From the NCBI RefSeq assembly GCF_900110605.1, contig NZ_FOFI01000006.1, positions 124,001 to 188,000 on the forward strand: 64,000 nucleotides of DNA, read 5' to 3'. Positions 30,207-52,656 of this stretch are shown piece by piece. The position numbers and the translations under genes were made by a program. Source of the stretch: Epilithonimonas lactis (GTDB lineage Bacteria > Bacteroidota > Bacteroidia > Flavobacteriales > Weeksellaceae). A model generated the notes under the pieces. It saw nothing but the letters and a program-made list of their open reading frames with translations. It made no database searches and was not told the DNA's origin. Every line of letters begins with the position of its first letter. Positions within the stretch are counted from its first letter, which is position 1.

Positions 30207-30382
30207 CTTTTATACTAAGAAACTTCGAGGCGCAACTCTAAAGAAAGATGCGGAAGAAAAAAAATAATTGCATAATTATAATAATGTTCGAAAAAATTCG
30301 CTGTGCAAATTTATTAACCTAGCCGAAAAAAGTAAAATTTATTTTCAAAGCGTGCTCGAAAAAGTACACAGTTGTAATTCAC

Positions 30383-30690: not shown

Positions 30691-30699
30691 ACTAACAAT

Positions 30700-31541: not shown

Positions 31542-31625
31542 TTTTTTCATCAGATTCGGCTTCCAATTTCATATTAATCTTGCTCATAATTTTGAACTTA
31601 TAATTTTATAGACAGAGAAAACATA

Positions 31626-32180: not shown

Positions 32181-32203
32181 TATTTACGTTTTTAAGTTAA
32201 ATT

Positions 32204-34750: not shown

Positions 34751-35922
34751 GTAAAATTGAGAAGTTGATTGCTAAATTTTGTCCCAATGGAGCGGAATGG
34801 AAACAACTAGGCGAATTTTGTGAGATAAAAACAGGTAAAGGTATCACTAAAATCCAAGGAAATATCAACGGTTTGTATCCTATTATAAGCGGAGGTAAAC
34901 AACCTATGGGATATTTCGACTTTTACAATAGGGACGCAAACAATGTAACAATATCCAGAGTCGGAGCAAATGCTGGATTTGTTAGTTTTATAAAAGATAA
35001 ATTTTATTTAAATGACAAATGTTTTTCGGTTATTCCGAAAGATGTACTTAATAAAAAATATCTCTTTTATTATCTGAAAAATTATGAAGATAAAATAATT
35101 GACATGCAGAGTGAAGGTGGTGTTCCTACAATTAATACACAGAAAGTTGCAGGAATTTCAATTCCAATCCCACCACTTCCAGTTCAAGAAGAAATTGTAA
35201 AAATTCTTGACAAATTCACTCAGCTCGAGGCGGAGCTCGAGGCGGAGCTCGAGGCGGAGCTCGAGGCGCGTACTCGCCAATATGAATATTATAGAAACCA
35301 ATTGCTTGCTTTTGAAGGGAAAAAAGTAGAATGGAAAACTTTGGGACAAGTAGCATCCTCTCAGTTAGCTTATGGCTCCGGGGCATCAGCAGTTGATTAT
35401 TTTGATAATATCCGCTATATAAGAATTACTGATATTAAAGATGATGGCAATTTAATTGTCGACAAAAAATCTCCCAGTGAAATTGAGGAAAAATATATTC
35501 TAAATGATGGAGATATATTAATTGCCCGAAGTGGAGCTACTGTAGGAAAAACTTTTCATTATAAAAAAACAGAGGAGAAAGCGATATATGCTGGCTATCT
35601 AATTCGATTTGTAGCTGATAAAAAGCAAGTTTTATCAAAATATGTTTATCATTTTACAAAATCAAATTTATTTACCTCTTTTGTTGAAAACAATAAGAGT
35701 ACGGGTTCTCAACCAAATATAAACGCAAAACAATATAGTTCAATTAAAATCCCAATCCCATCCTTTGAAGAACAAGAACGTATCGTTAAGATTTTAGACC
35801 AGTTTGATGCTTTGGTCAATGATATTTCAGTTGGCTTACCGGCAGAAATAAAGGCAAGAAGAGCGCAGTACGAATATTACAGAGGAAAACTGTTGACCTT
35901 TCAACCACTAGTACATTCTTAA
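34747..35922 (+). CDS. hsdS: Type I restriction-modification specificity subunit
   Basis: The 391-residue protein has two target-recognition domains, each followed by a conserved helical segment: VQEEIVKILDKFTQLEAEL...RTRQYEYY (about 145-185) and EEQERIVKILDQFDALV...RRAQYEYYRGKLL (about 345-385). Each half reads one side of the split recognition sequence. The central segment carries four tandem LEAE-type tetrapeptides that set the distance between the halves. In EcoR124/EcoDXXI a change in the number of such repeats alters the spacer in the recognised DNA. Both domains look intact. Confidence 0.95.
   Translation: MSKIEKLIAKFCPNGAEWKQLGEFCEIKTGKGITKIQGNINGLYPIISGGKQPMGYFDFYNRDANNVTISRVGANAGFVSFIKDKFYLNDKCFSVIPKDVLNKKYLFYYLKNYEDKIIDMQSEGGVPTINTQKVAGISIPIPPLPVQEEIVKILDKFTQLEAELEAELEAELEARTRQYEYYRNQLLAFEGKKVEWKTLGQVASSQLAYGSGASAVDYFDNIRYIRITDIKDDGNLIVDKKSPSEIEEKYILNDGDILIARSGATVGKTFHYKKTEEKAIYAGYLIRFVADKKQVLSKYVYHFTKSNLFTSFVENNKSTGSQPNINAKQYSSIKIPIPSFEEQERIVKILDQFDALVNDISVGLPAEIKARRAQYEYYRGKLLTFQPLVHS
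35221..35268 (+). repeat. Four 12-bp tandem repeats inside hsdS
   Basis: Unit GAGCTCGAGGCG occurs four times without interruption (the first begins with C), coding QLEA-ELEA-ELEA-ELEA. The unit is highly G+C-rich within an AT-rich gene, so it is prone to slippage, and each step would add or remove four residues in frame in the spacer helix. Confidence 0.95.
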
Positions 35923-35937
35923 AAACTCTAAAAAACT

Positions 35938-38900
35938 ATGACCCATTATAAACTCATTTCAGAAAATACAGAATCAACCGTAGTTGCAGAATATCAATCA
36001 GAGTATAAAAAAGAAACTTCCTACCAATCTGAATCAGAATTGGAGAAAGCCTTTATTGAGCTGTTAGAAAAACAGGCTTATACTTTTCTTAACATCAGAA
36101 CAGATAAAGATTTAGTCAATAATCTACGTTTGCAATTAGAAAAGCTAAACAATTATCAATTTACTGAAAAGGAATGGAAGTATTTTTTTGAAAGTAAAAT
36201 AGCGAATCCCAACAGTAATATAGAAGACAAAACACGTTTAATTCAGGAAGATTACATTCAGGCCTTGAAGTGTGAAGATGGTTCATTGCGCAACATATAT
36301 TTAATTGATAAAAAAAACATTCACAACAATCAGCTTCAGGTTATTAATCAATATGAAACCGAAGAAGGTAAACGTGCTACCCGTTATGATGTAACCATAT
36401 TGGTCAATGGTTTACCCTTGGTTCATATTGAACTGAAAAAGCGTGGTGTAAGTCTGCAGGAAGCGTTTAATCAAATTGACAGATATACGAGAGAATCATT
36501 TTGGGCAGATAGTGGTTTGTATGAATACATTCAGCTGTTTGTTATTTCTAATGGGACTTTAACGAAGTATTATAGCAACACAACCCGTTACACGCACATC
36601 AAAGAAAAAGAAAAGCAAGGAACCAAGAAATCAAAAACGAGCAACAGCTACGAATTTACTTCTTGGTGGGCGGATGGGAGCAATAAACCTATTTTAGATT
36701 TGATGGATTTTGGTAAAACATTTTTCACTAAACATTCATTACTAAATATCTTGACAAAATATAGCATTTTCACTTCGGATAAGCTACTACTTGTGATGAG
36801 GCCGTATCAAATCATTGCTACTGAACGTATTTTAACGAAGATAAACACGTCAAACAATTATAAAAAGTATGGAAGCATAGAAGCAGGTGGCTTCGTGTGG
36901 CATACAACAGGCAGTGGTAAAACATTGACATCTTTTAAAACAGCTCAACTTGCAAGCAAATTAGATTTTATCAAGAAAGTAATATTTGTGGTAGATCGTA
37001 AAGATCTGGATTATCAAACCATGAAAGAATATGATAAATTTGAGAAAGGAGCAGCTAATAGTAATACTAATACTGCTGTTCTAAAAAAGCAGCTTGATGA
37101 TCCTAATGCTAAAATCATCATCACCACGATTCAGAAATTATCAATCCTAATTAAAAAACAAAAAACTCACTCGGCATACAACAAGCCAATTGTTTTCATT
37201 TTTGATGAATGCCATCGTTCACAATTTGGTGATATGCATGAGGCGATAACCAATACCTTCAAAAAATATTTTCTTTTTGGGTTTACAGGTACGCCAATTT
37301 TTGCAAAAAATTCTAGTAGTGGTGGAAAAGCACACTTGAAAACTACAGTACAAGCTTTTGGTTGTTCTTTTCACGGTGATCCAAAAAACTGTCCTCAAGA
37401 AAATCATCAATCAGCAATACATACATACACCGTTATAGATGCAATAGCTGATAAGAATGTTCTTCCATTTCGTGTAGATTACATTAGTACGATGAAAGAA
37501 AAGGAAGACATTACAGAACAGCAGGTTCGGGATATAGACCGAGAACGAGCATTACTCTCACATGTTCGTTTAACCAATACAGTGGGTTACATCCTGAAGC
37601 ATTTCGACCAGAAGACAAGTCGGAACACCAAACCGTATTACATGACTACTTTGGCGAATGTGCAGGAGGTAGCATCCGCTAGAGACCGCAATAAAATAGA
37701 GGAAATCAGAGAAAAAATTAGAAGAAATGGTTTCAATTCTATATTTGCAGTTTCATCCATCGAAGCAGCAAAATTGTATTATCAGGAGTTTAAACGTCAA
37801 CAAAAAGATATTCCTGAATTACGTAAATTGAAAATTGCAACGATTTTCAGTTTTGGGCAAAATGATGCCGAGCAAGATGGTGTAGAAGATGACAACTCAG
37901 AATCTACAGAAGGATTAAGCGCTAGTGATAGAGACTTTCTAGATAGTGCAATAATTGACTATAACTTGGATTTCAAAACCACTTATGATACTTCTCCGGA
38001 GAAATTCCAGAATTATTATAAAGATGTATCCTTAAGAATGAAAAATCGAGAGATAGATCTTTTAATAGTGGTTAATATGTTTTTAACAGGTTTTGATGCG
38101 ACAACGCTAAATACTCTTTGGGTAGATAAAAACTTGAAAATGCATGGTTTGCTACAAGCATTTTCTAGAACAAACCGTATATTGAATTCAATTAAAACTT
38201 TTGGTAACATAGTTTGTTTCCGAAACTTGGAAGAAGCTACAAACCAAAGTTTAGCACTATTTGGAAACAAAGAAGCTGGAGGAATTGTACTTTTAAAAAC
38301 ATTTGAGGAATATTATTACGGATATAATGATGGTAAAAAAGATGTTATAGGTTACTACGATTTGGTAAATGAACTGTTGGAGAAATTCCCTATTGGAACT
38401 GCTATCATAGGTGAAGAGGATAAAAAAGACTTCATTCGTTTGTACGGTGCTATTCTAAAGCTGATGAACATTCTAAAATCTTTTGATGAATTCGAAGGTA
38501 AAGAAGTTCTCAGTGACAGAGATTTCCAGGACTACCATGGAATGTACATCGAGTTATATAATGAGTTTAGAACACAAGGCGGTGGAGATAGGGAAAATGT
38601 AAACGACGACATTGAATTTGAAATGGAATTGATCAAGCAAGTTGAAATCAATATTGATTACATTCTGATGCTTATTCGCAAATATCATGAAAGTCATTTA
38701 CAGGACAAAGAAATTGTTGTCAACATCAGCAAAGCCATCGATTCCAGTGTTGATCTGCGAAACAAAAAAGAGCTCATTGAAAAGTTTGTCGCTTCCCTTA
38801 CGCCAACGTCTAATGTAGACGATGAATGGAGCAGTTATGTTGAAGAAGAGAAAAAAGCTGAGCTTGAAAAAATTATCATTGAAGAAAAACTAAAAGAAGA

Positions 38901-39090
38901 AGAAACGAAAACTTTTATCAGTAACTCCTTCAAAAATGGTGAAATCCAATCAGCAGGAACTGCTTTCGCAAAAATCTTACCTCCTGTTTCCCGATTTTCT
39001 CCCACCGGAGATTTGATGAAGAAAAAGGAAACTGTTTTGGAAAAATTGAAGGCTTATTTTGATAGGTTTTTTGATATAAGCGGACAATAG
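35938..39090 (+). CDS. hsdR: Type I restriction endonuclease and translocase subunit
   Basis: The 1050-residue protein has an N-terminal PD-(D/E)XK nuclease region (TRYDVTILVNGLPLVHIELKK, about residues 140-165), a superfamily 2 motor with HTTGSGKT (about 321), DECHR (about 422) and GFTGTPIF, and a C-terminal helical region that docks on HsdM. It cuts unmodified DNA after translocation. It starts 15 bases after hsdS. The three hsd genes are complete and should form a working type I system. Confidence 0.97.
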   Translation: MTHYKLISENTESTVVAEYQSEYKKETSYQSESELEKAFIELLEKQAYTFLNIRTDKDLVNNLRLQLEKLNNYQFTEKEWKYFFESKIANPNSNIEDKTRLIQEDYIQALKCEDGSLRNIYLIDKKNIHNNQLQVINQYETEEGKRATRYDVTILVNGLPLVHIELKKRGVSLQEAFNQIDRYTRESFWADSGLYEYIQLFVISNGTLTKYYSNTTRYTHIKEKEKQGTKKSKTSNSYEFTSWWADGSNKPILDLMDFGKTFFTKHSLLNILTKYSIFTSDKLLLVMRPYQIIATERILTKINTSNNYKKYGSIEAGGFVWHTTGSGKTLTSFKTAQLASKLDFIKKVIFVVDRKDLDYQTMKEYDKFEKGAANSNTNTAVLKKQLDDPNAKIIITTIQKLSILIKKQKTHSAYNKPIVFIFDECHRSQFGDMHEAITNTFKKYFLFGFTGTPIFAKNSSSGGKAHLKTTVQAFGCSFHGDPKNCPQENHQSAIHTYTVIDAIADKNVLPFRVDYISTMKEKEDITEQQVRDIDRERALLSHVRLTNTVGYILKHFDQKTSRNTKPYYMTTLANVQEVASARDRNKIEEIREKIRRNGFNSIFAVSSIEAAKLYYQEFKRQQKDIPELRKLKIATIFSFGQNDAEQDGVEDDNSESTEGLSASDRDFLDSAIIDYNLDFKTTYDTSPEKFQNYYKDVSLRMKNREIDLLIVVNMFLTGFDATTLNTLWVDKNLKMHGLLQAFSRTNRILNSIKTFGNIVCFRNLEEATNQSLALFGNKEAGGIVLLKTFEEYYYGYNDGKKDVIGYYDLVNELLEKFPIGTAIIGEEDKKDFIRLYGAILKLMNILKSFDEFEGKEVLSDRDFQDYHGMYIELYNEFRTQGGGDRENVNDDIEFEMELIKQVEINIDYILMLIRKYHESHLQDKEIVVNISKAIDSSVDLRNKKELIEKFVASLTPTSNVDDEWSSYVEEEKKAELEKIIIEEKLKEEETKTFISNSFKNGEIQSAGTAFAKILPPVSRFSPTGDLMKKKETVLEKLKAYFDRFFDISGQ

Positions 39091-39103
39091 AAATATAGCA
39101 GTT

Positions 39104-40318
39104 ATGATAAAAATAGTTATGTTCAGAGCTGGTTACGGTGATACTATACTTGTTCAAATTGAGAATAAAACAAATGAATATAATCTCTTAATTGATTGTG
39201 GATTTGGATATAAGGATGGCTTATTAAACTTTGTCAACACAAAATTTAAAGATAAAAAAATTAATAAATTCATTATTACTCATTACGATAGTGATCATAT
39301 AACTTCAGCATCAAAATTTCTTGAAGACAATGGAGATTACAATAATCCTCAAATGGTTAAGATAGAGCAGATTTGGCTAAATACTTTTAAACATTTACAA
39401 TTCTCAAAAAGGGCAAATCAAGTATTAAATCAGGACACAAAAGAACAGATCCAAGAACTTATTACTAAAAAACTTTCTGAATTGCCTATTGAAGATAATG
39501 AAGGTGATATTGGCGCAAAGCAAGCAACACTATTGGGTAAAACAATTCTGAAGTATGATTATCCTTGGAACTTTGATTCAAAAGGAGAAGCGATTTGTAT
39601 TGAAAATATGCCTGAGAATATTAAGGATGATTCAGTAAAATTTACATTATTGACCCCTAGTAAAGAAAGGTTAGAAAACTTAGAAAAGGAGTTTATTAAA
39701 GACCTTAAAAAATTAGGATTTGAAACAAATGCTGATGAAATTTTTGATGATGCTTTTGAATTATTGACTAGGGAAAATAATGTACAAAATTCTAACGAAG
39801 GAAATATAAGTTCAAGCAGTTATGTTATCAATTCTAATAATATCAACACTTTTAGTAAAGGTGGAAACTATTTAAAAGATGATTCTGTAGGTAATGGCAG
39901 TTCTATATCCTTTGTAATAGAAGCGGAAGGTAAAAAAATGCTTTTTTTAGCTGATGCATTTGCAGAAGATGTTATTAGTAGATTAGAAATGATATATCCG
40001 AACAAAGATGAATATCCAATATTTTTTGATTTAATAAAGGTTTCTCATCATGGTAGCTTTAGAAATAATAAGCCAGAGCTTTTCGAAATAATTGATTCGG
40101 ATAAATTTTTATTTTCAACAAATGGAAAACACCCTAAACATGTTCATCCAGATATAGATACTATTTCATGCATAATCAATAGAAATTTACCAAAAGATGT
40201 TGAGTTTAGGGAACTTATTTTTAATTATGATTTAGAGCATTTGAATGATTTCAAGACGAAGGAATTAGAAGAAGAATTTAGCTATAAAATCAAAAATCAA
40301 TTAGTTACGGAATTATGA
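39104..40318 (+). CDS. Metallo-beta-lactamase-fold hydrolase (ComEC/Rec2-like), defence cassette
   Basis: The 404-residue soluble protein begins VMFRAGYGDTILVQI and has the metal-binding motif THYDSDH (about residue 59), a later Asp in FLADAF (about 281) and VSHHGSF (about 315), the usual order for the ComEC-type MBL family. An insert at about 130-255 is not part of the fold. Such enzymes often act as nucleases or phosphodiesterases. It lies 13 bases after hsdR and overlaps the protease gene by four bases (ATGA), so it probably belongs to the protease/ATPase cassette rather than to the restriction system. Confidence 0.85.
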   Translation: MIKIVMFRAGYGDTILVQIENKTNEYNLLIDCGFGYKDGLLNFVNTKFKDKKINKFIITHYDSDHITSASKFLEDNGDYNNPQMVKIEQIWLNTFKHLQFSKRANQVLNQDTKEQIQELITKKLSELPIEDNEGDIGAKQATLLGKTILKYDYPWNFDSKGEAICIENMPENIKDDSVKFTLLTPSKERLENLEKEFIKDLKKLGFETNADEIFDDAFELLTRENNVQNSNEGNISSSSYVINSNNINTFSKGGNYLKDDSVGNGSSISFVIEAEGKKMLFLADAFAEDVISRLEMIYPNKDEYPIFFDLIKVSHHGSFRNNKPELFEIIDSDKFLFSTNGKHPKHVHPDIDTISCIINRNLPKDVEFRELIFNYDLEHLNDFKTKELEEEFSYKIKNQLVTEL

Positions 40319-41589
40319 ATTTAATAGAAAATTCCACTTGTAAGATTACTGTACAAACACAACAAGGAATTTACACAGAAAAAGGAACTGGTTTTTTTAT
40401 TAGTAAATATCAAATTTTAACTTGTAAACATGTAATTGAAAATGTGGATGGAAATATTATTTTGGAAAATTGTCATAATCAAAATGGCTTAATGTTGACA
40501 GCTAAAGTAATAGATAGTTGTGAACTAACTGACTATGCTTTATTAGAGCTAAATGAGGCTTTTGAAAGTGAATATTTTTTAGAGTTATGTGATTCAGAAA
40601 TTGTCGAGGAAGAAAACATTACAATATTCGGATATTCAATAGATAATCAAGGTCAAAGTGCAGGGGAAAGACTTAAAGGATCAATAGATAGAGAAATACA
40701 AGGTCAAAACTTAATTCAAGATGTTTCTTTGAGCATATTAAATTATGCACAAAACTCTAATTATGATGCTTTCTCAGGATCTGCTGTAGTTAACGATTAT
40801 TTCCAAGTTACATCTATTGTTAAGTATCAGGCAGTTCGTAATCTTAGTTCTGTGAGTATAAGAAAGGCTAAAACATTTTTAGAGAGAAATGGCATCAATG
40901 TAAAGCATGATCAAATTGTATCATTTGATTTATTTAAGAATGATGTATTTGTAGGTTTTGGTGATAGGGAGAGCGAGTGCGTGGTAGAATCGAATAATCC
41001 AATTAATAATCTTTCCCCAAAGGTAATCATTGAATCAAAAAGAGATGATATATTTTATCCAAGGAAAAATTTTGATTTAAAAGAACTAATAAAACATTTA
41101 AGAAAGGATAAAAATGTTAATGATAAACTATGGAAAGGTTGGATACAAATACTAACATACGTTGAAATACTTAAAGGAGATTATAGTGACGCAAATCATA
41201 TAAGTATCAATGTAACATCAAAAGAACTATCTAATGTTTTTGGAATCTTCAGTCGCAAAAGAGACGTACCTATCGAATTATATCTTAATTTTTACTTAAC
41301 TGAAGAAAAAAACTATTTCAATATAGCTAAGATGTCTATTCATGAAAATAAAAAGAATCAAATTGCAAAGCACACCTGTAATATTTTCAATTCAAATATA
41401 GATCAGTTTGGTAATACAAATAAACTTGTAGTTGATATAAGTAATCCTGAACATTCAGGGCCAAGTATTCCAAATATAAAAATCGGAGCTCTTAGTTTGA
41501 ATCAAATAAATAGAGCTGTCATAGATAGCAATTCATTAGCTGATGTTAGTATCAATTTAAAAAAGATTTTTGAAGATGCCATTAAATAA
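40315..41589 (+). CDS. Trypsin-like serine protease, effector-type protein of an ABC-3C system
   Basis: The 424-residue protein has an S1-type protease domain with the full catalytic triad: His in LTCKHVIE (about 39), Asp in LTDYALLEL (about 71) and Ser in FSGSAV (about 154). There is no signal peptide, so it acts in the cytoplasm. The C-terminal half (about 220-424) is an unrelated domain with the look of the ABC-3C effector C-terminal domain (ELIKHLRKDKNVNDKLWKGWI). In such three-component systems a protease or nuclease is linked through this domain to a middle component and an ABC ATPase; both follow here with overlapping genes. Confidence 0.85.
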   Translation: MNLIENSTCKITVQTQQGIYTEKGTGFFISKYQILTCKHVIENVDGNIILENCHNQNGLMLTAKVIDSCELTDYALLELNEAFESEYFLELCDSEIVEEENITIFGYSIDNQGQSAGERLKGSIDREIQGQNLIQDVSLSILNYAQNSNYDAFSGSAVVNDYFQVTSIVKYQAVRNLSSVSIRKAKTFLERNGINVKHDQIVSFDLFKNDVFVGFGDRESECVVESNNPINNLSPKVIIESKRDDIFYPRKNFDLKELIKHLRKDKNVNDKLWKGWIQILTYVEILKGDYSDANHISINVTSKELSNVFGIFSRKRDVPIELYLNFYLTEEKNYFNIAKMSIHENKKNQIAKHTCNIFNSNIDQFGNTNKLVVDISNPEHSGPSIPNIKIGALSLNQINRAVIDSNSLADVSINLKKIFEDAIK

Positions 41590-42106
41590 AGCAAATCACA
41601 TAATAACTTCCTTAAAAGAGAAGGATGAAAGCATAACATTTGAAGGACTTGAATGTTGGATTAAAGAAGAAAAGGAGTACAATATTTATATATTCTGTAT
41701 TCAATTTTTAGATAAGGATGAGCTATTAAAAGTTCATGAGGAGCTTAGAGATTATATAGCAATCTACTTCCAAAGTCAATTCTTAGAAAAAAATGTAGAA
41801 AGATGGAATATTTACCAGTTTTTCTTTATAAAAGATAAGATTGATGAAGTGACAAAACAATTGATTGAGCAAGATAAGTTTTCTACTCGGAAAATTATTC
41901 ATGATGATTTGGAGAAAGAACTTAGTGATGACGAGGTTATTTCTATAATTGATGAAGAACTATTTAATTTTACAATTAGTAGGAGGAGTCTTGCGAGCGA
42001 TTCTGTCGATACCTTTTTAGTAGATAAAAAGCATGATGAAGTCATCGCAATCTTAGGTAAACAACTAACTGCAGAAGAACTAATAACTACTTTAGATCAT
42101 GAGTAA
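41576..42106 (+). CDS. ABC-three-component system middle component (MC1-like)
   Basis: The 176-residue protein is counted from the ATG at 41576; a TTG two codons earlier is possible. It contains VERWNIYQFFFIKDKI and a stretch with EQDKFSTRKIIHDDLEKEL, which resembles the conserved part of ABC-3C middle components. These small proteins join the effector to the ATPase. It overlaps the protease gene by 14 bases and the ATPase gene by 8 bases, which suggests a fixed stoichiometry. It is acidic and has no signal or membrane segment. Confidence 0.7.
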   Translation: MPLNKANHIITSLKEKDESITFEGLECWIKEEKEYNIYIFCIQFLDKDELLKVHEELRDYIAIYFQSQFLEKNVERWNIYQFFFIKDKIDEVTKQLIEQDKFSTRKIIHDDLEKELSDDEVISIIDEELFNFTISRRSLASDSVDTFLVDKKHDEVIAILGKQLTAEELITTLDHE

Positions 42107-45100
42107 AATTAAAAAAATTGAAATTTCTGATTTTAGGATATATGAGGGAACCTCAGAGTTTAATCTGGAGAAAAAAGATTACGTAGCGAATCTAGTGGCG
42201 ATATATGCTCCTAATGGTTATGGAAAAACATCATTTTTTGATGCAATTGAGTGGACTTTTAGTAATAAAATAAAAAGATTTGAAAATGATTTTACAAAAA
42301 AAGCTATCAAAAGTGAAACAGAAAATACTATTTTGTTAACTAATAGCGATAGTTATAAAAAAAGAATCCAGGGAAAAGTTAATATTGAACTTGATAATAG
42401 TCAATTTGTCGGAAAATTAGTAAGTAGATATAAAAAACCGGGTACAATCTATTATAACGATTATCGTCAGGGCAATTTATCCGATGGATCAATTACTTCT
42501 GATTTTAGTGCTGTGCCATCTAGTAATGTTTTAACTCAAGATCAAATTGATAGTTTTTTACGATTCAAAACTCCTGAAGAAAGATTTAATGAATTAAAAG
42601 ATTTTTGGCCTCAGAGTTTTGAAGCAACTGAGAGATTGAAGCAATTATCTGATTTACTTAAAACATTAAATAAAAAAAGAGAGTCTATTGATTTTGCTAT
42701 TAAAAAAAATGACGAGGAACTTGCAAAACTTAATGGCAATGAAGAGAATATTTCTAAAGTAAATATATGGCTTGATAAATTGACTAAGGTAGACTATACT
42801 AAATTTACAAAATATTCAGTTGAAAAAATAGATAAAAGTATTTCAAAAGAGAATTTTGAAAAAATTCATAAAGAAAACTCTAGAAATATTAAACAGATTC
42901 ACATAGATATTGAGAATCTTGAAAAAACGAAGAGTGATCTTGATTACTTAATTAAAGAAGTTGAGAATTATATAAATAGTACAAGTAAGTTAAAATCTCT
43001 TGAAGCTAGTGTAAAACAGCTTCAAACTAGAAAATCAAATTATTTAAATCTACGTAAATCGAAAGAGCTTGAAAGTCAAATATTAAAAGAAATTGAAATT
43101 TTAAAAGTAAAAATTGGAGATTATCATTTTCTTTTAAATCATTTAGATAATTATTTATTAGATGTAGAAAAAATAAACCAACTAAGATTAGTTGAACAAA
43201 CCCTATTAAAAGAAAATTCTAAATTTTTAGAGTATAAAAAGTATGCACAAAATTCAATAATTAATTTTAATGAATCTTTGCTAAAACACAATTCAGTTCT
43301 TTCAGATAAGAAGTCTAAAGAGAAGGATCTTCAAAAAGTATTTTCTGAATTTGAATCTACTTATGACAATTTAGAAAAGCGTAAACAGGAATTAATTGAA
43401 TTCAAAGAACATTTTGAAAAAAATAATAAAAAGATTAACGAATTACAAGAGCTAAATCAATCATATTCTTTAATAATTGATAAAAAAAATTTTTCAAATA
43501 CACTTTTAAATGCCAATATTGATATAAAGGCTTCTTGTGACGAATTTGAAATCATAACCAATAAACTTATCGATTTTAATAGCAAATTAACATCAGAAAA
43601 GAATGAATTAAATACGCTACTCAGCTTTAATGATGATCTAGATAAAGTAATAATGTATGGTAAAGGTTATCTAATTAAAACAGAAAGTTCAGATTGCCCT
43701 TTGTGTAAGACAACTTTTAATTCATTCCAAGAGATATTGTCAAAAATTGATTTAGAAAGATTAGGAGCTTTAAAGATTGTTGAACAACAGAAAATAGTTG
43801 ATGATATTGAAAGAGAAATTAAAGATTTGACTTCTAAATCAGCTGAAATAGAGAAAAGTATTATCTCCAAGATAAATATAGAAAGAACTAAACTCATTGA
43901 TGAAATATCGTCTTTACAAGAAACCAAAAATAAACTATCTACAAAAATTATTGATTGCGAAAAATCTATTAAAAGTTTAAGTTTTGATTTTAATGAGCAT
44001 TTAACTTTCTTCAAAGAAATAGATTCCACTTTATTAGTTATTGATAACAATAATATTAAGATAATTGAAAAAAATATCAAAGAGGAAATAATTAAGTTAA
44101 GTGAAAAGGAAAATCGATTGAAAATTATCATAGAAAAAAAAGAAGCTCAACTTAAAGCTATCAATTTAAAATTGATTGAAAATAGTTCTGTTATAGAAAC
44201 TAATAAGAATAATTTAGAATATATTGAAGCTCAAGAATATTTAAAGAGATTTGAAAGTTTAATTCTACTACTCAATATTGATAATTCTAATGTCAATATT
44301 GAATATCTAAACAGAATTATTAAAGAATTTGAAGAAAATCTAAAAGAAAAAAGTGCCAAAAATAATGAGATTTCAGTTATAGTAAGAGATTTTCTAGAAG
44401 TTTTAGAATCTGAAGAATTAAAAATTTCCGAGCCAAATATTGATGGAGAAATAAGTAATTCGGAATCACAAATTAAATTGTTTAAAGATTTTCTAGAAAA
44501 CTACTTAGCACGTTTTAATAAATATATAAATAGTGAAACTATTTCAAGTGATGTCATTTCCGATTTTATAAAAAATATCAATAGTGAACATGAAAAACTT
44601 ACTAATTTAAAAAACGAATTAAACTCTTTTGGAATAGACTTGGAACTTATCAAGGATAATGTAATTGCAAATGATTTATCGAATGGGATTCTAGAGTTAG
44701 AAAGTGAGATTCCTCCACTGATAAGAACTACTGAGAAAGTCTCTTCGGTTAGGAAAGATTGCATGGAATATATTCAAACTGGTATCAATGATTATTTTAA
44801 CAAGGATGTAATTAACCTAATATATGGTAGAATAGAGCCTCATCCTAAGTTAACAAAAATTGATTTTTTCACAGATTTTAATGATCGTGGCGAACCAAGA
44901 CTTTTAATTACAACTGGCAATGAAGAAGGACAAGTTAATCCCATTTTATTTTTAAGTGCTGGGCAAGTTAATGTATTATCATTAAGTATTTTTTTAGCTA
45001 GATGTTTTGAATATGGAAATAAAGAAATAGAAACCATTTTTATGGATGATCCCATTCAAAATCTAAGTGATATAAATGTATTGTCATTTATTGATTTGTT

Positions 45101-45260
45101 AAGAACATTAATAACTGAACAAAACAAACAAATCATCATATCTACACATGACGAAAAATTTTTCAAATTACTGCAAAATAAACTTCCAGAGCAATACTGT
45201 AATACCAAATATTTTGAATTTGAATCAATGGGTAAATTACGAGCAAACACTATTATTTAA
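42099..45260 (+). CDS. Rad50/SMC-like ABC ATPase of an ABC-3C system
   Basis: The 1053-residue protein has a Walker A motif APNGYGKTS (residues 37-45), two long coiled-coil arms rich in Lys, Glu, Leu and Ile (about 180-930), a zinc-hook-like CPLC at the arm tip (about 533), the ABC signature LSAGQ (about 953), Walker B IFMDDP (about 980) and an H-loop STHDEKF (about 1014). This is the Rad50/RecF plan. In ABC-3C systems the ATPase senses foreign or damaged nucleic acid and drives the effector. The gene is markedly AT-rich compared with hsdM and mnmE. Confidence 0.88.
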   Translation: MSKIKKIEISDFRIYEGTSEFNLEKKDYVANLVAIYAPNGYGKTSFFDAIEWTFSNKIKRFENDFTKKAIKSETENTILLTNSDSYKKRIQGKVNIELDNSQFVGKLVSRYKKPGTIYYNDYRQGNLSDGSITSDFSAVPSSNVLTQDQIDSFLRFKTPEERFNELKDFWPQSFEATERLKQLSDLLKTLNKKRESIDFAIKKNDEELAKLNGNEENISKVNIWLDKLTKVDYTKFTKYSVEKIDKSISKENFEKIHKENSRNIKQIHIDIENLEKTKSDLDYLIKEVENYINSTSKLKSLEASVKQLQTRKSNYLNLRKSKELESQILKEIEILKVKIGDYHFLLNHLDNYLLDVEKINQLRLVEQTLLKENSKFLEYKKYAQNSIINFNESLLKHNSVLSDKKSKEKDLQKVFSEFESTYDNLEKRKQELIEFKEHFEKNNKKINELQELNQSYSLIIDKKNFSNTLLNANIDIKASCDEFEIITNKLIDFNSKLTSEKNELNTLLSFNDDLDKVIMYGKGYLIKTESSDCPLCKTTFNSFQEILSKIDLERLGALKIVEQQKIVDDIEREIKDLTSKSAEIEKSIISKINIERTKLIDEISSLQETKNKLSTKIIDCEKSIKSLSFDFNEHLTFFKEIDSTLLVIDNNNIKIIEKNIKEEIIKLSEKENRLKIIIEKKEAQLKAINLKLIENSSVIETNKNNLEYIEAQEYLKRFESLILLLNIDNSNVNIEYLNRIIKEFEENLKEKSAKNNEISVIVRDFLEVLESEELKISEPNIDGEISNSESQIKLFKDFLENYLARFNKYINSETISSDVISDFIKNINSEHEKLTNLKNELNSFGIDLELIKDNVIANDLSNGILELESEIPPLIRTTEKVSSVRKDCMEYIQTGINDYFNKDVINLIYGRIEPHPKLTKIDFFTDFNDRGEPRLLITTGNEEGQVNPILFLSAGQVNVLSLSIFLARCFEYGNKEIETIFMDDPIQNLSDINVLSFIDLLRTLITEQNKQIIISTHDEKFFKLLQNKLPEQYCNTKYFEFESMGKLRANTII

Positions 45261-45281
45261 TTAGCTAGTAAATTAATATTT

Positions 45282-47147
45282 ATGGAAAGAGATCTTAATA
45301 TACTTATTAATCATTGTTTCACAACCCACACTACCCAATATAGTTCAACAAATACTGTCGTCACAAAAAAATTAATTGATTCTGGAGTTCTTATAAAAAT
45401 TGAAAGCGAAACTTTAGAAGTGTATGAGATTAATTTTCACTCAGATTTTTTCAACAAAAAACTTTCAGTCTACTCAGAAGATATTTTGTGTAAAAAAGTG
45501 CCTACAAATCTACCTGAAGCATATCAATTTGTAGACGACTTCTTCAATAAGATTAATATATATAATGGAAATTATCTTTGGAGTGGAGCTAGAGAAATAA
45601 CTCAAGGCTTATTATCCTACATTTTGAAAAATTTTTTGGAAAATGGTTTAGATATTCATGAAATCTTTAAAATATTAGAAAAAGAGGAGGAACTAAAGCC
45701 GCACATTATAGATTTTAGATTGTCCTATTTGTTTGCAATCTCAAAATTTGCAAGTTTAAGTGATTTAAAAAAATGCATAATAGAACTTGCTAACTCCTCC
45801 AAAAATTATGAAGCTGATGCTTTTGTAGGAGATTTGCCAAGATTAAATCCCAATTTGGCGATGGAATTATATAATTCCGTACTCGAGGAAAGTACTGATA
45901 TGAAACATTTCTTTTTGGCGAAAATACTATACAATTTTATAAATATTGATTTAGACTTTGTTTTTGAAGAAGCAAAAAAAATATTTGTGAGCTTACCCAC
46001 TACAGCTCTATTTATTTTTGGCAGGATACCATTTACCAATGAGGACGATATTATAGAAGTTGATAAGATTGTAGATAATTCAAAATTTTCCGATAATCAG
46101 ATTTCTGAATACAGCTACTATCTCTGCAAGCTTATAATGAATAAATCTACACCAGAACTGATAAAGAATAAATATTTTGAAAGATTAAGTGATTTAATAG
46201 CGTCAATCGAAGACAATCTTTTAAATGCAGTTTTTCATACTATTACTTTTCATTTGAAAGATAATGATGAAGAAAAGTATAAATTACTCCATCAATACTT
46301 GTCAAGAACACAAAATTTTTCAGTAATACAAAGTTTCTTTCACAATTTTAGTGATCCAAAGTATTTGTTCCATCTTATGGTCATGACATCTACTACAACA
46401 GGATGGCGCTCTGCTACTGAACTTTATGATAGTGCTCTGCAAAATTTTTGGAATATCAAGAATGAAGAGATGGAGCGTTGTATATTCGAGCTATTTAACA
46501 GTAGAAAGCATAGTTTATTAGGTGTGCAAGTAATAATGTCTGGTTATTCCAAACCATATAATGTTGACTTAAAAAAATCAACAAATATTCAGCAACTAAA
46601 TGCGATTGTGGCTTGTAGTAAATATCCAATCTTTTTTGAATTACTTCTGCCGTTAATATTACCATTGAGAAACTCCAAATCAAGTAAAATTAAAGATTGT
46701 TTGATTTTACAATTATCAATATTGATAAAAGAAGCATATGGTAAAACATTATATGAGTTAATTGAATCACAAATCACAAAGTCTAAAGCTGATAAGATAT
46801 TTTTAGAGAAAATAAGTATTGCATTAGATGAATACCTGATTGATAAAGTTGAGCGAGAAAGTATAAATGAATTTAATCCTTATTTAAATGAGGATGAACA
46901 CTTAAACTTATATTATAGATTACAAAATGAAAGTCAATCTAAAGCTAGCAAAAACGCTGATAAAAAATCAATATTTGGTCAGTTTGCAAGCACCAAAATT
47001 ATTGTGAGAGGTAACTCTTTTAAGATAGGAGATAAAGAAATTAATTCAATGGGAAAAGTAAGTGTTAGCGCAATGATTGATAAAAGGGCTTATAAAGATC
47101 CCGAAGCTTTTGAAATGTCTTTAAATAATTTTGAAAATGGAAATTAG
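45282..47147 (+). CDS. Unrecognised helical-repeat protein next to nuclease
   Basis: I do not recognise this 621-residue protein. It has no signal, membrane segment or enzyme motif that I can see. From about 90 to 560 it is a run of Leu/Ile-rich helices of 20-30 residues, like a HEAT or TPR-type solenoid. The C-terminal 60 residues (STKIIVRGNSFKIGDKEINS) look like a small beta domain. It starts 21 bases after the ATPase gene and its end overlaps the nuclease gene by 11 bases. A role as scaffold or sensor for that nuclease is the natural inference. Confidence 0.75.
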   Translation: MERDLNILINHCFTTHTTQYSSTNTVVTKKLIDSGVLIKIESETLEVYEINFHSDFFNKKLSVYSEDILCKKVPTNLPEAYQFVDDFFNKINIYNGNYLWSGAREITQGLLSYILKNFLENGLDIHEIFKILEKEEELKPHIIDFRLSYLFAISKFASLSDLKKCIIELANSSKNYEADAFVGDLPRLNPNLAMELYNSVLEESTDMKHFFLAKILYNFINIDLDFVFEEAKKIFVSLPTTALFIFGRIPFTNEDDIIEVDKIVDNSKFSDNQISEYSYYLCKLIMNKSTPELIKNKYFERLSDLIASIEDNLLNAVFHTITFHLKDNDEEKYKLLHQYLSRTQNFSVIQSFFHNFSDPKYLFHLMVMTSTTTGWRSATELYDSALQNFWNIKNEEMERCIFELFNSRKHSLLGVQVIMSGYSKPYNVDLKKSTNIQQLNAIVACSKYPIFFELLLPLILPLRNSKSSKIKDCLILQLSILIKEAYGKTLYELIESQITKSKADKIFLEKISIALDEYLIDKVERESINEFNPYLNEDEHLNLYYRLQNESQSKASKNADKKSIFGQFASTKIIVRGNSFKIGDKEINSMGKVSVSAMIDKRAYKDPEAFEMSLNNFENGN

Positions 47148-48906
47148 AAATTTAATAGTTAAAGAATATTTAGAATCGCTAACCGAAAAAGATGAATTGA
47201 ATAAAATATTTCCAATTCTCTTGGAAGCTCAAGGATTCGAAATTTTAACTAAACCAACTGAAAATTTAGGACTTAAAGAATATGGAAAAGATATAGTAGC
47301 TATTGGCGATGATCCTGAAGATAATATAAAAAAAAGATTTTATTTTGAATTAAAAGGTGGTGTAGATAGAAATATAACTGAAAAAAAGTTTTATGGAAAA
47401 GACGGTATTCAGGATTCGCTTTCTCAAGCAACATACAATCCTTTTCTATCAGCATATCCTCAATTTGATAAACTCCCGTTGAAGGTGATTATTGTTCATA
47501 ATGGTACAATTGAAGGTAAAATTCAAAGTACGTTAGAGGGGATGTTTTTAATTCTGGAAAAATCTCTACATGAAACATCTTTTGAGCGATGGGATATTTC
47601 AAGATTAACTAAAATATTCACTGAAAACCTTTTCAACGCTTACCTTTTGACAGATGATGTTAATGTAAGATTGTTCAACAAAACTCTTATAAATCTCGAT
47701 GCGGATGAACATGTTTCGGCTGAGTTTGTAAAATTGTTAGAGAACTTGTTGTCAGTATTTCAATTTGATAAGAAAAAGCTTTGTACAAATAGAAATAATC
47801 AGATGATATTTGAGACTTTCAAGTTAATCTCATTCATTGTTTTTACTGAGTCAAAAAGATATAACAATCTAAATATTGCTAAGAAATACCTTCTGTGCTT
47901 GTTGATTAAAGTTTGGCATTGGACACTTAAAAATAAACTAGAAGAAAATAAATTCGCTTTAAAGTATTTTGAGCAATTATACCAGTTTTACTTTGACGAA
48001 GTTTTGCTGGATTATTTTGAAAAGACCTTACCAATTGCGCTTAAGAAAGACGGTCTTTATTTTGAGAACGGTGGAATGTATGAGGAAATTGGATATAATC
48101 TCAGATCATTTGATTTTTTAGAGTTTTATGTGATTTATATTAAATATTGTTTAACGAGCAATAACAATATTTATAATAAGGAAAGTACAAGACTGATGTT
48201 AGCTGAAATTATAAATCAAAATAAAGTTTGTATGAAGCCTTTGCTTGATTATCATTCTAATATTATTTGTTCTGTTATTAATTTATTTATAGAGTTAGAT
48301 GACTTAGAAAGTGCGAGAAACTATTTAAAGGTTACAATTAGTAATTTACGCAGAAGGAAAGCAGACAATAATTTTTTACCTGATGCTAACAATAGTATTG
48401 AGAATGTTATTAAATTTAAAATGACCGGGACAAAACCTATCTTTTATTCTGATTCTACATCCCCACTATTGGCGACCATTTTTATCTATATTGCTATTTT
48501 AGATCTAGAAAAAGAATATAAGGAATTACGAGAATTCGTTTTAGAAAAACAAATTGACCTTGGTTATTTTGTTCCACATTTTGGAATTAATTCTATTTCA
48601 AAACATCTAATTGAAGATGTTGAAAATGATTTTGAAGAACAATTATTTTCAAAACCCTTTTTTAATGAAGGCTATCAGCGAGACCTGTCTCTAAAAAAAA
48701 TTGATTATAAAAATTTCAATTTGAACGGGGATTTGAGTTTTGATGAGTTTAAAAAATATGTGCTAAGTTCAAAAGATGAGTTTGAATATTCTTATAGAAC
48801 TGATAATGCTGGATTTCCATTGATGAAAGATTTAGTACATGTGTTTTTTCTGACACCATATTTCCCAGATGCATGGAGAGCTCAAATTGAAAACTTAATA
48901 CTGTAA
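47137..48906 (+). CDS. PD-(D/E)XK nuclease-like protein with large helical domain
   Basis: From the ATG at 47137 (a TTG lies two codons earlier) the product is 589 residues. Its first 90 residues match the PD-(D/E)XK core: ILLEAQGFEILTKP, YGKDIV (Asp52) and YFELKGG (Glu71, Lys73), as in restriction enzymes such as the Mrr group. The other 500 residues are helical, with no family that I recognise, and may pair with the similar solenoid coded by the overlapping gene before it. The gene is followed, after 58 bases, by mcrB. It looks like a new two-gene defence unit; function is inferred. Confidence 0.75.
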   Translation: MEIRNLIVKEYLESLTEKDELNKIFPILLEAQGFEILTKPTENLGLKEYGKDIVAIGDDPEDNIKKRFYFELKGGVDRNITEKKFYGKDGIQDSLSQATYNPFLSAYPQFDKLPLKVIIVHNGTIEGKIQSTLEGMFLILEKSLHETSFERWDISRLTKIFTENLFNAYLLTDDVNVRLFNKTLINLDADEHVSAEFVKLLENLLSVFQFDKKKLCTNRNNQMIFETFKLISFIVFTESKRYNNLNIAKKYLLCLLIKVWHWTLKNKLEENKFALKYFEQLYQFYFDEVLLDYFEKTLPIALKKDGLYFENGGMYEEIGYNLRSFDFLEFYVIYIKYCLTSNNNIYNKESTRLMLAEIINQNKVCMKPLLDYHSNIICSVINLFIELDDLESARNYLKVTISNLRRRKADNNFLPDANNSIENVIKFKMTGTKPIFYSDSTSPLLATIFIYIAILDLEKEYKELREFVLEKQIDLGYFVPHFGINSISKHLIEDVENDFEEQLFSKPFFNEGYQRDLSLKKIDYKNFNLNGDLSFDEFKKYVLSSKDEFEYSYRTDNAGFPLMKDLVHVFFLTPYFPDAWRAQIENLIL

Positions 48907-48964
48907 ATAATCTTCAAAAATCTTTTGTAAATAATAAAACTCTGACAAAATTTACGATAAGCTA

Positions 48965-51298
48965 ATGACAACTAATGAAATAAAAGAAGGCATAAAATCA
49001 CTTTGCGAAACTTCTAAAACGATACAAAATTGCTACGAAAACAAACAGGTTTTAGTAGATGAAATCAATAGAGCAAAAAGGAGCGATATTGAAAAATGTT
49101 GGCAATATTATCAAAGCAGAAGCGGCGTAATTGTAGATGTGAGGAAAGAGTTGATTAAATATATTATCGACGGAGGAATTGTAACAGTTGATTTTCTTGA
49201 GAAGTTGGTAGCAAAGCATAAAGAAGGCAAAGAAAACCAATTCAAAACATATAAGAATTTTTATACAATATTCTATCCTGCAATTACATTTTATGGCCAC
49301 CAAAATTTAAGAGAATTTATTGAAAAATTTATCAGACAACTTATTTTGGATCTAGGAATTGGTGAATACGTTAAGTCAATTTCGTTTGATTTTCAAGGAG
49401 CTAGACAGCTTGGTAGTGATCGATATTGGTTAGCTATTTATAACAAAGAACAAGAAAACCAGTCTACAGGTTTGCAATTTTTTATAGATTTTCATCACGG
49501 ATCTATGACTTATGGAATTTACAGGCATTCTGACAAAACTTATGTGAAAGAAAAGATTTTAGCAACCGCAGTTGATTTTGATTATGATGTTTTGCTATCT
49601 TATTTTAAATCAGGTGTTAATACTGTTCTGGAAGATATTCCGGATTATGGAGATTTAAAAACAATTGATTTAGAAAATCATAGTTTATTTAAAATGTCCC
49701 ATGGAAGTTTTAAACAGAGAAGTAAAAGTCATATTGTCGAAAGTTTAACCAATAACAATTGGATTACTTTACATGAAGATACAGGCAAGGGTCAAGCTAA
49801 GTCTTTTAAAGAAAATTTGAAAACGGGAGATTTTGTTTACGTAACTCTTGGCTCAAATAAACTTATAGGAATTGTGCGAATAATTTCTGATGTTTGGGAT
49901 TATGTGCCAAATGAAATGATTGGAAGTGATGGTTGGATTTATAAAGAAGTAGAGTTTGTTAAAAATCCTGTGAAACATAACACAAAAGACCTTTTAGACA
50001 AAGGAAATATTTATCCAAGTGGAAACACTACTTTCACCCAAATCAAGCCTGATATTTTAGAAGAAGCAAATAAAAAACTATTTAAGCCTTATTTCAATGT
50101 TGAATTCATAAATGGACAAATAACTATGAGCTTAGCTTCCAACATGCCATCAATGATTACTGCTCCCTTAAATCAAATATTATATGGTCCGCCCGGAACA
50201 GGTAAAACATATAGTACAATTTTAAAAGCCGTTGAGATTATTACAGGAAAAATCACGAATTCTTACAAAGATGCTGTAGATATTTTTAATAAGAATCTTC
50301 ACAACCAAATAGAATTTATAACATTTCATCAAAATTATAGTTACGAAGATTTTATACAGGGATTAAGACCTGATACAGAAAATGGAAAAGAATTGTCATT
50401 CGAAAAGAAAGATGGTGTTTTCAAAAAAATTGCGGATAAAGCTTTACGAAATTTAAAGGCATCAAAAAATCCAATAAATAATAAGAAATATTTTGATTTA
50501 GTTTTTGACGAGCTCATTCAACCTCTAAATGATGGAGAAGTGAAAGAACTGGAGATAAAAATGAAAAAAACCTCCTATTATATTACTGATGTTGGAGATA
50601 AATCTATTGAATTTCGAAAAAATATTGGAGACTCTGAACATACTTTAAGTATTAATACTCTGAAAAGAATGTATGAAATTGGAGAAAGTGATATTATAAC
50701 CGGAGGCTTAAAACATTATTATAAACCATTATTAGAAATCTTATTAGAAAAAGGAAAAAGCGATTTAGCTAAAGTTGAACTTCAAAATTACGTTATTGTA
50801 ATTGATGAAATCAACCGAGCAAATATCTCACGCGTTTTTGGAGAATTGATTACTTTGATTGAAGAAGATAAGCGTTCAGAAGGCGAGATTCCACTCTCAG
50901 CTACATTGCCGTCTGGTGATTCATTTATTGTTCCATCAAATTTGTACATAATAGGTACTATGAACACAGCTGATAAGTCCATAGCATTACTTGATATAGC
51001 TTTAAGAAGACGTTTTGAATTCGTTCCTTATTATCCAAATCATTTAACCGCAGGAGTTAAGGATGGATTTGTCTTAGAAAAAATTAATTCAGAAATTCAA
51101 AAGAGAAAAGGATACGATTTTACAATTGGTCATGCCTATTTTATGGGTGAGAATTATTCATTAGAAAAAACAATCAATAATAAAGTTATTCCTTTACTAC
51201 TCGAATATTTTATGAACGATGAAAGAGAGATTATATCCATCCTAAAAGCTTGTGATATTGAATTGGAAGGTTGGCCAATGAAAATGAAAGCGTTGTGA
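48965..51298 (+). CDS. mcrB: McrB-type AAA+ GTPase with EVE-like and DUF3578-like N-terminal domains
   Basis: The 777-residue protein has an N-terminal DUF3578-like domain (about 1-215; FFIDFHHGSMTYGIYRH), an EVE/PUA-like modified-base reader (about 255-340; LKTGDFVYVTLGSNKLIGIV) and an AAA+ motor with GPPGTGKTYS (about 408), VIVIDEINRAN (about 612) and GTMNTADKS (about 665). With McrC it restricts DNA with modified cytosine. The insert between the AAA motifs is typical of McrB. Its stop overlaps the start of mcrC (GTGA at 51295). Confidence 0.95.
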   Translation: MTTNEIKEGIKSLCETSKTIQNCYENKQVLVDEINRAKRSDIEKCWQYYQSRSGVIVDVRKELIKYIIDGGIVTVDFLEKLVAKHKEGKENQFKTYKNFYTIFYPAITFYGHQNLREFIEKFIRQLILDLGIGEYVKSISFDFQGARQLGSDRYWLAIYNKEQENQSTGLQFFIDFHHGSMTYGIYRHSDKTYVKEKILATAVDFDYDVLLSYFKSGVNTVLEDIPDYGDLKTIDLENHSLFKMSHGSFKQRSKSHIVESLTNNNWITLHEDTGKGQAKSFKENLKTGDFVYVTLGSNKLIGIVRIISDVWDYVPNEMIGSDGWIYKEVEFVKNPVKHNTKDLLDKGNIYPSGNTTFTQIKPDILEEANKKLFKPYFNVEFINGQITMSLASNMPSMITAPLNQILYGPPGTGKTYSTILKAVEIITGKITNSYKDAVDIFNKNLHNQIEFITFHQNYSYEDFIQGLRPDTENGKELSFEKKDGVFKKIADKALRNLKASKNPINNKKYFDLVFDELIQPLNDGEVKELEIKMKKTSYYITDVGDKSIEFRKNIGDSEHTLSINTLKRMYEIGESDIITGGLKHYYKPLLEILLEKGKSDLAKVELQNYVIVIDEINRANISRVFGELITLIEEDKRSEGEIPLSATLPSGDSFIVPSNLYIIGTMNTADKSIALLDIALRRRFEFVPYYPNHLTAGVKDGFVLEKINSEIQKRKGYDFTIGHAYFMGENYSLEKTINNKVIPLLLEYFMNDEREIISILKACDIELEGWPMKMKAL

Positions 51299-52656
51299 TA
51301 AACTTGTTTGAATATAAAAATAAAGCGTCATTAGATGAAGAACATTTCGAGGATTTAGAAATGTTTTTAGACTCGGTCTGGAATAAAAGAGAAAAAACAG
51401 CATATTATACTGAAGAGGAAAATAGAGAAGAAGTACAACGTTTTTTACAATTTTTTCATAGAACAAATGAACTTAAATCAAATAAGTATGTTGGTGTAAT
51501 TCATTTCCAAAATCAAACCATCAATCTTTTACCTAAAATCTTTTATGAAGATAATGAGGTTAATGAAAATAAGGTATTCGTTATTAACACACATATTCTG
51601 TGGTGGTTGAGTTACTGTAGAAAATTGAAGTTTCCTAATTATCTTTCAGGACTGAATAGCGAGAAAGCTGATTTTTTTGAAGTATTAATATACTTATTTA
51701 GTAAATATACAAAGGAAATTTTAAATTCTTCAGTTTATCAAAAATATGTTGAAATTGAAAATGAAATCAATAATGTAAAAGGAAGGATTAATTTTAATTC
51801 ATACATTAAAGAGAATTTAGCAAAAGCAAGACATCACAAAATTTGCTGCATTTATGATTCTTTTGAAATTGATAATGACTTTAATCAATGCATAAAATAT
51901 GTATGCAAAATATTATTATCTGCAACTTCTGATTATAAAAACAAAAGAAGTTTAAATGATATTTTATTTTTATTGGATGATGTTTCCGACGTTACAATTT
52001 CAGCAGATCAATGTAAACGAATTAAGTTTAATCCTCTTTTTTCGCATTTCGAAACAGTCAGAGACTATTGTAGTTTATTTTTAGAAAATTCAATATCATT
52101 TAATTATAAAAATGAGCTGAAGTTGTTTGCCTTTCTTTTACCAATGGAATATGTTTTTGAAGATTTCATTTACGGATTTATCGATAGAGAAATTGAAGCT
52201 GTAAATCCAAAGGGACAAGTTTCGGGTGTGTATCTAGACGAGGATAAAACATTTAGTTTGAAACCCGATTTAATTTTAGATTTAGGATTCAAAAAAGTAA
52301 TAGCAGATACTAAATATAAATTGGTTTATTCTAACGATTTAGATCCTAAATGTGGGGTTTCTCAATCTGATTTATATCAAATGGTTTCATACGCAATTCG
52401 CTTCTCTATAAATGAAGTCAAATTGTTTTATCCTACCAATATGGCTGATACACTTTTAGGGGATTTCAATATAAAAATCAAGGATACTCTGGCGGATGGA
52501 AAAGAAATAGAAGTTTCTGCTCATCAATTACCAGTTATTGATTTGAATTTAATCCCGGAAGAAATTAAGTCACATCAGAACTTTATTAATAGTTTCGAAA
52601 AATTAAAAAATGACCTTGTTAAGAGGTTAGAGGCAATATTATTTTCTCATAAATAA
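51295..52656 (+). CDS. mcrC: McrC nuclease subunit
   Basis: The start is chosen as the GTG at 51295, which overlaps the mcrB stop as GTGA; an in-frame TTG at 51271 is also possible. The product (453 residues) begins INLFEYKNK, and has the PD-(D/E)XK motif KPDLILDLG...ADTKYK (about 323 and 336), the cleavage centre of McrC. The McrBC 5-methylcytosine-specific complex cuts between two modified sites with the McrB motor. It is the last plus-strand gene of the defence block and ends 18 bases past the stop of a convergent gene fragment. Confidence 0.92.
   Translation: MINLFEYKNKASLDEEHFEDLEMFLDSVWNKREKTAYYTEEENREEVQRFLQFFHRTNELKSNKYVGVIHFQNQTINLLPKIFYEDNEVNENKVFVINTHILWWLSYCRKLKFPNYLSGLNSEKADFFEVLIYLFSKYTKEILNSSVYQKYVEIENEINNVKGRINFNSYIKENLAKARHHKICCIYDSFEIDNDFNQCIKYVCKILLSATSDYKNKRSLNDILFLLDDVSDVTISADQCKRIKFNPLFSHFETVRDYCSLFLENSISFNYKNELKLFAFLLPMEYVFEDFIYGFIDREIEAVNPKGQVSGVYLDEDKTFSLKPDLILDLGFKKVIADTKYKLVYSNDLDPKCGVSQSDLYQMVSYAIRFSINEVKLFYPTNMADTLLGDFNIKIKDTLADGKEIEVSAHQLPVIDLNLIPEEIKSHQNFINSFEKLKNDLVKRLEAILFSHK

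Follow-up and report, generated by a model that had tools for sequence, protein, structure and literature searches.

Two overlapping genes in a 64,000-nucleotide stretch of the Epilithonimonas lactis genome (hereafter the window) encode what is almost certainly the antiphage system Olokun. The upstream product, OloA, matches the PADLOC model PDLC03925 at 4.3e-59 over residues 127-619 of 621, and the downstream product, OloB, matches PDLC03926 at 3e-125 over residues 7-586 of the 591-residue form that starts at a TTG codon. The Olokun gene arrangement is present as well, with oloA followed by oloB, adjacent and on the same strand. A sequence-only reading of the window had described the locus as a possible new two-gene defence unit. 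The homology of both proteins to the Olokun models bears out a two-gene defence unit and rules out a new defence system; a strong profile match to a system already described, which that reading had named as evidence against its proposal, is what PADLOC provides. The pair is thus another member of Olokun.

Pfam and NCBIfam returned nothing for OloA or OloB at E ≤ 1, and PHROGs gave no match to either at E ≤ 0.01. Among relatives, the PADLOC models are matched by 58 of 59 aligned OloA sequences and by all 64 aligned OloB sequences. The OloA alignment (A6) contains 54 of the 75 listed references of loci L021-L100 plus five others, and the OloB alignment (A5) 58 of 76 plus six others; near-duplicates and some partial rows were omitted from both.

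Across positions 45282-48906 both open reading frames (ORFs) are intact, at 621 and 589 amino acids (Table 1), and they overlap as the sequence-only reading had noted. The listed start of oloB is a TTG at 47131, which gives the 591-residue form, and an ATG at 47137 gives 589 residues; the ATG is best taken as the start, the TTG being also possible. The residue numbering of that earlier reading, which is kept here, and the 11-bp overlap between this ATG and the end of the oloA stop codon at 47147 both depend on that choice. Compared with G019, a genome of the same genus, the ratio of nonsynonymous to synonymous substitution is 0.21 for oloA and 0.12 for oloB, and the two appear to evolve as genes under purifying selection.

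Excerpts from the literature present Olokun as a system that is described but lacks a worked-out mechanism. A passage of PMC10121019 attributes it to Millman et al. 2022 (its reference 7), and it is named among the systems found in Pseudomonas in passages of PMC12629846 and PMC12390725. The nuclease idea is already in print: a table in PMC10855318, which lists mechanisms either validated or predicted, assigns Olokun to "Nuclease Activity-Nucleic Acid Degradation". A passage of a 2026 review (PMC12926258) groups it with systems of largely uncharacterised mechanism, a 2025 passage (PMC12592470) calls it not thoroughly characterised, and among the literature matches listed there was no Olokun mechanism paper. 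Against this background, the family alignment supplies Asp52, Lys73 and Glu17 of OloB as residues that can be mutated in any Olokun, whereas mutation of Glu71 would be informative for the nuclease idea only in the clade of the window copy.

OloA as the partner of OloB

When one genome was scanned for each species, 88 oloB relatives emerged, the best 80 of which, by likeness to locus L003, were kept as loci. Every one of the 80 has an upstream partner ORF on the same strand (at least 150 amino acids, ending at most 400 bp from the oloB start). Judged by mechanical ORF ends, the partner overlaps oloB in 75 of them, and five partners are short (276-419 amino acids). Over 73 pairs, distances between OloA proteins follow those between their OloB partners with a correlation of 0.96, the highest of 500 permutations being 0.09. 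The coefficient is uncorrected for shared ancestry and near-identical rows, and ancestry alone yields much of it, which counts against reading it as a sign of partnership. In the same set, all 12 OloA partners of OloB proteins that carry glutamate at position 71 have another such partner as their nearest relative. OloA and OloB thus seem to be co-inherited, with no swapping visible between the Glu71 and glutamate-less types. The upstream partner in all 80 loci and the co-inheritance make it probable that the two proteins form a complex, as the sequence-only reading had suggested.

OloA is a probable HEAT/ARM-like alpha-solenoid, in line with the solenoid protein named by the sequence-only reading. 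Its family profile, compared with the PDB, places ARM/HEAT-type repeat proteins at the top of the list, with matches to designed ARM/HEAT repeats and to importin alpha. Because repeats match repeats easily, these matches support a solenoid and not a line of descent. The Pfam family HEAT_2 is found at E ≤ 0.1 in 11 of 59 OloA sequences (best 9e-6) and in no part of the window OloA, which as a single sequence also matched no PDB chain at E ≤ 1.

The further proposal that OloA and OloB have large, similar helical regions fails at profile level. Compared with the OloA profile, the OloB tail scored 17.0, below the 17.9 obtained with the tail reversed; 30 shuffles reached up to 16.3.

A probable nuclease domain at the OloB N-terminus

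The motif of the PD-(D/E)XK nucleases, D ... (D/E)xK, is complete in the window OloB as Asp52, Glu71 and Lys73, the three residues picked out by the sequence-only reading. Two further acidic residues, Glu17 (84 of 85 OloB sequences, the other having a gap) and Glu20 (82 of 85), are nearly invariant. The 85 sequences comprise the window copy, L003, L004, L005, L008 and L021-L100.

In profile comparisons with ten Mrr-type domains of related genomes, the OloB N-terminus scored 31-32, whether represented by the profile of the clade with Glu71, by that of the other sequences or by a joint profile. Three reversed OloB profiles scored 10-12, 100 column shuffles of the joint profile reached at most 21.45, and 14 decoy stretches from MnmE, OloA and the OloB tail at most 16.5. 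The ten Mrr-type sequences were gathered with a seed profile of four, themselves chosen by motif pattern. In the alignment with the Glu71 clade, Glu71 falls on the glutamine of the Mrr QxK motif and Lys73 on its lysine, and in the joint alignment of the whole OloB family Asp52 falls on the Mrr aspartate. When ten N-terminal domains were scanned alone, that of locus L084 was the sole one to match Mrr_cat (0.0051), and it also matched Hjc (0.076).

Several observations weigh against this assignment. The hhalign probability for the OloB N-terminus and the Mrr-type set is 52-55%, and the alignments are partial: Asp52 faces a gap in the first of the two described above, the joint alignment ends at residue 55, and no single OloB-Mrr alignment covers the whole core. 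The Mrr helix glutamate aligns with OloB position 22, which is aspartate in 79 of 85 sequences and asparagine in the window copy. Mrr_cat was found in only three of 64 OloB relatives (best E 0.009), and the one match with a bit score given, that of the L084 domain, reached 17.4, below the 21-bit Pfam cut-off. The L084 domain also matches HicA at 0.077, and the window OloB matches no Pfam nuclease family. Among solved structures, the OloB profiles matched four and five chains up to E 10, all of them weak and unrelated and none of them a nuclease. On balance, the motif together with profile scores above the nulls makes a PD-(D/E)XK-type core probable, and we regard the OloB N-terminus as a likely, though not proven, Mrr-like domain of this kind.

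The faint resemblance to the DNA enzymes Mrr and Hjc also bears on a rival reading in the manner of a toxin-antitoxin pair, in which OloB would act on tRNA or mRNA, or otherwise shut down the cell, and OloA would inhibit it. Gene overlap and regular pairing would fit that arrangement equally, but OloA is solenoid-like and larger than OloB, presumably unlike the usual antitoxins, and together with the likeness to DNA enzymes this leaves an RNA-directed or toxic role decidedly improbable.

Variation at the motif glutamate

The one uncommon trait of the window copy is its complete motif, whose glutamate is missing from 67 of the 85 sampled OloB sequences, a point against the nuclease reading. Position 71 is Ser in 20, Glu in 18, Thr in 18, Ala in 16, Val in 12 and Cys in one; in the 81 distinct rows the counts are Ser 20, Glu 18, Thr 17, Ala 13, Val 12 and Cys 1. 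Because the 80 loci were ranked by likeness to L003, which lacks the glutamate, the 18 of 85 should not be taken as a frequency in the population. In the OloB tree, a branch with SH-aLRT 99 separates the 17 Glu71 rows from the rest, and the named ones among the 17 are Bacteroidota except for one Ignavibacteriales metagenome-assembled genome. The tree was built with a quick method and midpoint rooting, carries a long-branch warning for L008, and includes 82 of the 85 rows, three of fewer than 480 amino acids being omitted. An Escherichia coli copy (L101) has serine at position 71. Among ten further OloB loci, eight show the motif by pattern (position 71 Ser in five, Thr in two, Ile in one), and L015 and L017 do not. 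A separate alignment, A9, was assembled by selecting for Glu71, and the 18 of 18 that it shows is uninformative on that residue.

In sequences without the glutamate, the missing acid may be supplied from elsewhere. Position 27, in the first helix, carries an acidic residue in 60 of the 67 sequences that lack Glu71 and in none of the 18 that have it, and positions 59, 82, 85 and 89 differ likewise between the two groups. Because both states flank a single branch and other positions differ too, the correlation at position 27 counts as one event and not as independent proof. As another candidate, we considered a move of the acid to position 97, in the helix after Lys73, and rejected it: Glu or Asp occurs there in 52 of 67 glutamate-less sequences and Glu in 10 of 18 glutamate-bearing ones, with no clean swap between clades. 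We offer only tentatively, and with some doubt, the idea that OloB has two active-site forms, D...ExK in one mostly Bacteroidota clade and a glutamate-less form (Ser, Thr, Ala, Val or Cys) in the other lineages sampled, including the E. coli copy. Both forms retain Asp52, Lys73, Glu17 and Glu20, and the missing acid has perhaps moved to the first helix. If true, the active site would have been rearranged inside a single defence family. The split, seen in a biased sample and across a single branch, might be the sole point here that a specialist would not expect.

The same variation raises the alternative that OloB begins with a degenerate PD-(D/E)XK domain, which in most lineages would bind nucleic acid but not cut it; the complex would then protect in some other way, for example by blocking replication. 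In its favour are the substitutions at position 71, including the serine of the E. coli copy. Near-invariant Asp52, Lys73, Glu17 and Glu20 would be odd in a dead site, however, and Glu71 is kept throughout the window's clade in the tree, so we consider a binding-only OloB unlikely.

Genomic setting and distribution

The pair lies in a block (33188-52656) in which profile matches identify every neighbour as a defence gene, in agreement with the sequence-only reading: HsdM, HsdS and HsdR, four Lamassu-type genes, McrB and McrC (Table 1). The McrC neighbour matches Pfam McrBC at 1.8e-69, and the McrB neighbour matches Pfam AAA_5 and, below the model cut-off, NCBIfam McrB at 2.3e-35. The Lamassu set has a guanine-plus-cytosine content of 26.6%, oloAB one of 28.5% and mcrBC one of 29.1%, compared with 34.9% in hsd and 39.2% in window positions 1-25000.

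Table 1. Features of the Olokun pair and its neighbours, in window coordinates
Feature	Position	Strand	Remarks
oloA (Olokun component A)	45282..47147	+	621 amino acids; probable HEAT/ARM-like alpha-solenoid; PADLOC match
oloB (Olokun component B)	47137..48906	+	589 amino acids; likely N-terminal Mrr-like PD-(D/E)XK domain and helical tail; PADLOC match
Predicted PD-(D/E)XK domain, OloB residues 1-160	47137..47616	+	profile-profile score against Mrr-type domains
Asp52 of OloB, predicted metal ligand	47290..47292	+	Asp in 84/85 aligned sequences, gap in the remaining one
Glu71 of OloB, ExK motif	47347..47349	+	Glu in 18/85 aligned sequences
Lys73 of OloB	47353..47355	+	Lys in 85/85 aligned sequences
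OloB C-terminal tail	47617..48903	+	helical according to the sequence-only reading; no convincing match to solved structures
hsdM, hsdS, hsdR (type I restriction-modification), outside the unit	33188..39090	+	profile matches
Lamassu-type set (MBL hydrolase, trypsin-like protease, LmuC/MComp1, LmuB SMC-like ATPase), outside the unit	39104..45260	+	profile matches
McrB-like AAA protein and McrC, outside the unit	48965..52656	+	profile matches

The position of oloA, 22 bp after the LmuB stop codon, suggests that oloAB could belong to the Lamassu-type operon before it as an additional arm and not be an independent system. The G019 genome repeats the order hsd-Lamassu-oloAB in the layout of the window (L132 and L133, C17:155001-195000), with a divergent Lamassu set (LmuB 3.6e-227) in the same slot directly upstream of the pair, a further point in favour of such an arm. 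The same genome also provides an argument against it. From window position 45281 to 48877, oloAB is 94.8% identical in nucleotide sequence between the two genomes, whereas the four Lamassu-slot genes share the layout without any nucleotide match; their MBL, MC and LmuB proteins are 35-50% identical over aligned stretches, and none was found for the protease. Kept at about 95% identity beside differing Lamassu sets, the pair behaves as a module. The hsdM and hsdR genes of G019 are about 84% identical in nucleotide sequence to those of the window and hsdS is mostly not alignable; the G019 stretch read showed neither McrB nor McrC. As a side observation, the divergent Lamassu set in the G019 slot is a sign of exchange near gene boundaries within the defence block.

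A wider survey likewise showed no regular link between Lamassu and oloAB. In 24 genomes with oloB relatives, the LmuB profile, one of several LmuB models, matched strongly only in G000 and G019, the latter having a second strong match on another contig; the best match in the other 22 was 1.9e-23, and such weak matches look generic because the model also matches weakly in all 14 control genomes. When 96 loci were searched by BLAST with the window neighbours, the only matches outside G019 were hsdR-like in L060 and, in L035 and L036, MBL-like stretches, but since a first BLAST round had missed the divergent Lamassu set of G019, BLAST alone is weak evidence on this point. Taken together, these results make dependence of oloAB on the Lamassu operon very improbable. 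In L035 and L036 (Maribacter), the MBL-like coding stretch (4693-5506) lies about 0.9 kb upstream of oloA. Among the 25 of 53 matching families listed for neighbours of the Glu-type loci (81 proteins, 15 loci), IetS, type I restriction endonuclease, dGTPase and DRT were each matched once. PMC12799240, whose subject is such MBL-protease pairs, shows for Hachiman and AVAST that the protease activates the nuclease, a proenzyme, and notes the pair in Lamassu.

An integrative mobilisable element probably carries the defence block; it would be inserted after the gene that ends at 26966, which we take from its sequence to be mnmE. In the region 25581-32941, a tyrosine integrase gene (27137-28276) follows this gene, and a MobC-like protein is encoded at 31188-31541, just under the Pfam cut-off; genome G007 shows the same mnmE-integrase junction. 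The right end of the putative element was not found, and a candidate attachment-site repeat of the mnmE 3' end was rejected, as only the gene's own copy occurs in the window and the 14.8 kb beyond. Separately, the 13-base word GGAATGACCTACA forms a short repeat cluster, occurring nine times at 59913-60164 and once at 28031, inside the integrase gene.

A protein search with OloB found one copy in its own genome and matches in two of 59 related genomes, its own included; across the phylum, the PADLOC OloB model matched nine of 395 genomes, and none of 14 controls. Plasmids gave no nucleotide match and, by protein, 33 records, all below 60% identity. A search of E. coli DNA with Cedecea oloB gave no match, and Proteus oloB matched 14 of 5426 genomes. 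In L101 (E. coli strain 41), oloAB-like genes at 4275-7704 adjoin phage tail genes and an invertase gene, a prophage-like stretch, and six IMG/VR contigs carry OloB relatives (L012-L017), some of these contigs seeming to be near-copies of one another. Among the nine loci of the phylum that match the OloB model, L011 is matched over 50 positions, and the weaker matches L007, L009 and L010 have, by eye, an ELK motif near the C-terminus and not the N-terminus, beside other repeat-like proteins; these three are possibly a different solenoid-plus-nuclease pair.

Proposed mechanism and comparison with known systems

The explanation that we favour, and consider somewhat better than evenly probable as a whole, is an Olokun antiphage system in which the OloA solenoid controls or recruits a DNase, OloB; the sequence-only reading had likewise put forward a sensor that would control a nuclease. 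OloA would bind OloB and either hold it inactive or recruit it. A phage product or phage DNA structure, putatively sensed by OloA, would then act as the trigger, upon which OloB, as an Mrr-like PD-(D/E)XK enzyme, would cut phage DNA or both genomes. Asp52, Glu71 and Lys73 would form the metal site of the window copy, to which the first helix might contribute a further acid. The proposal builds on gene order, profile membership, pairing, co-inheritance, module-like transfer, selection and the conserved D...(E)xK core. Against it counts that complex formation, sensing by OloA and DNA cleavage by OloB are steps that we infer.

In regard to known systems, OloB resembles the Mrr-type and Hjc-type PD-(D/E)XK nucleases (PF04471, PF01870) in its aspartate followed by (E/Q)xK and in a profile score above the nulls. 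It differs from them in its long C-terminal tail and solenoid-like partner gene, and in giving no match above the Pfam cut-off. Lamassu with an MBL hydrolase and a trypsin-like protease adjoins the Olokun pair on the same strand, yet none of the genes of that operon is part of the pair. The closest likeness is to Olokun itself, with which the window locus shares both PADLOC models, the gene order and the pairing. The window copy departs from it in the first 126 residues of OloA, which lie outside the PADLOC match, and in its full D...ExK motif, where the one E. coli copy read has serine in place of the glutamate.

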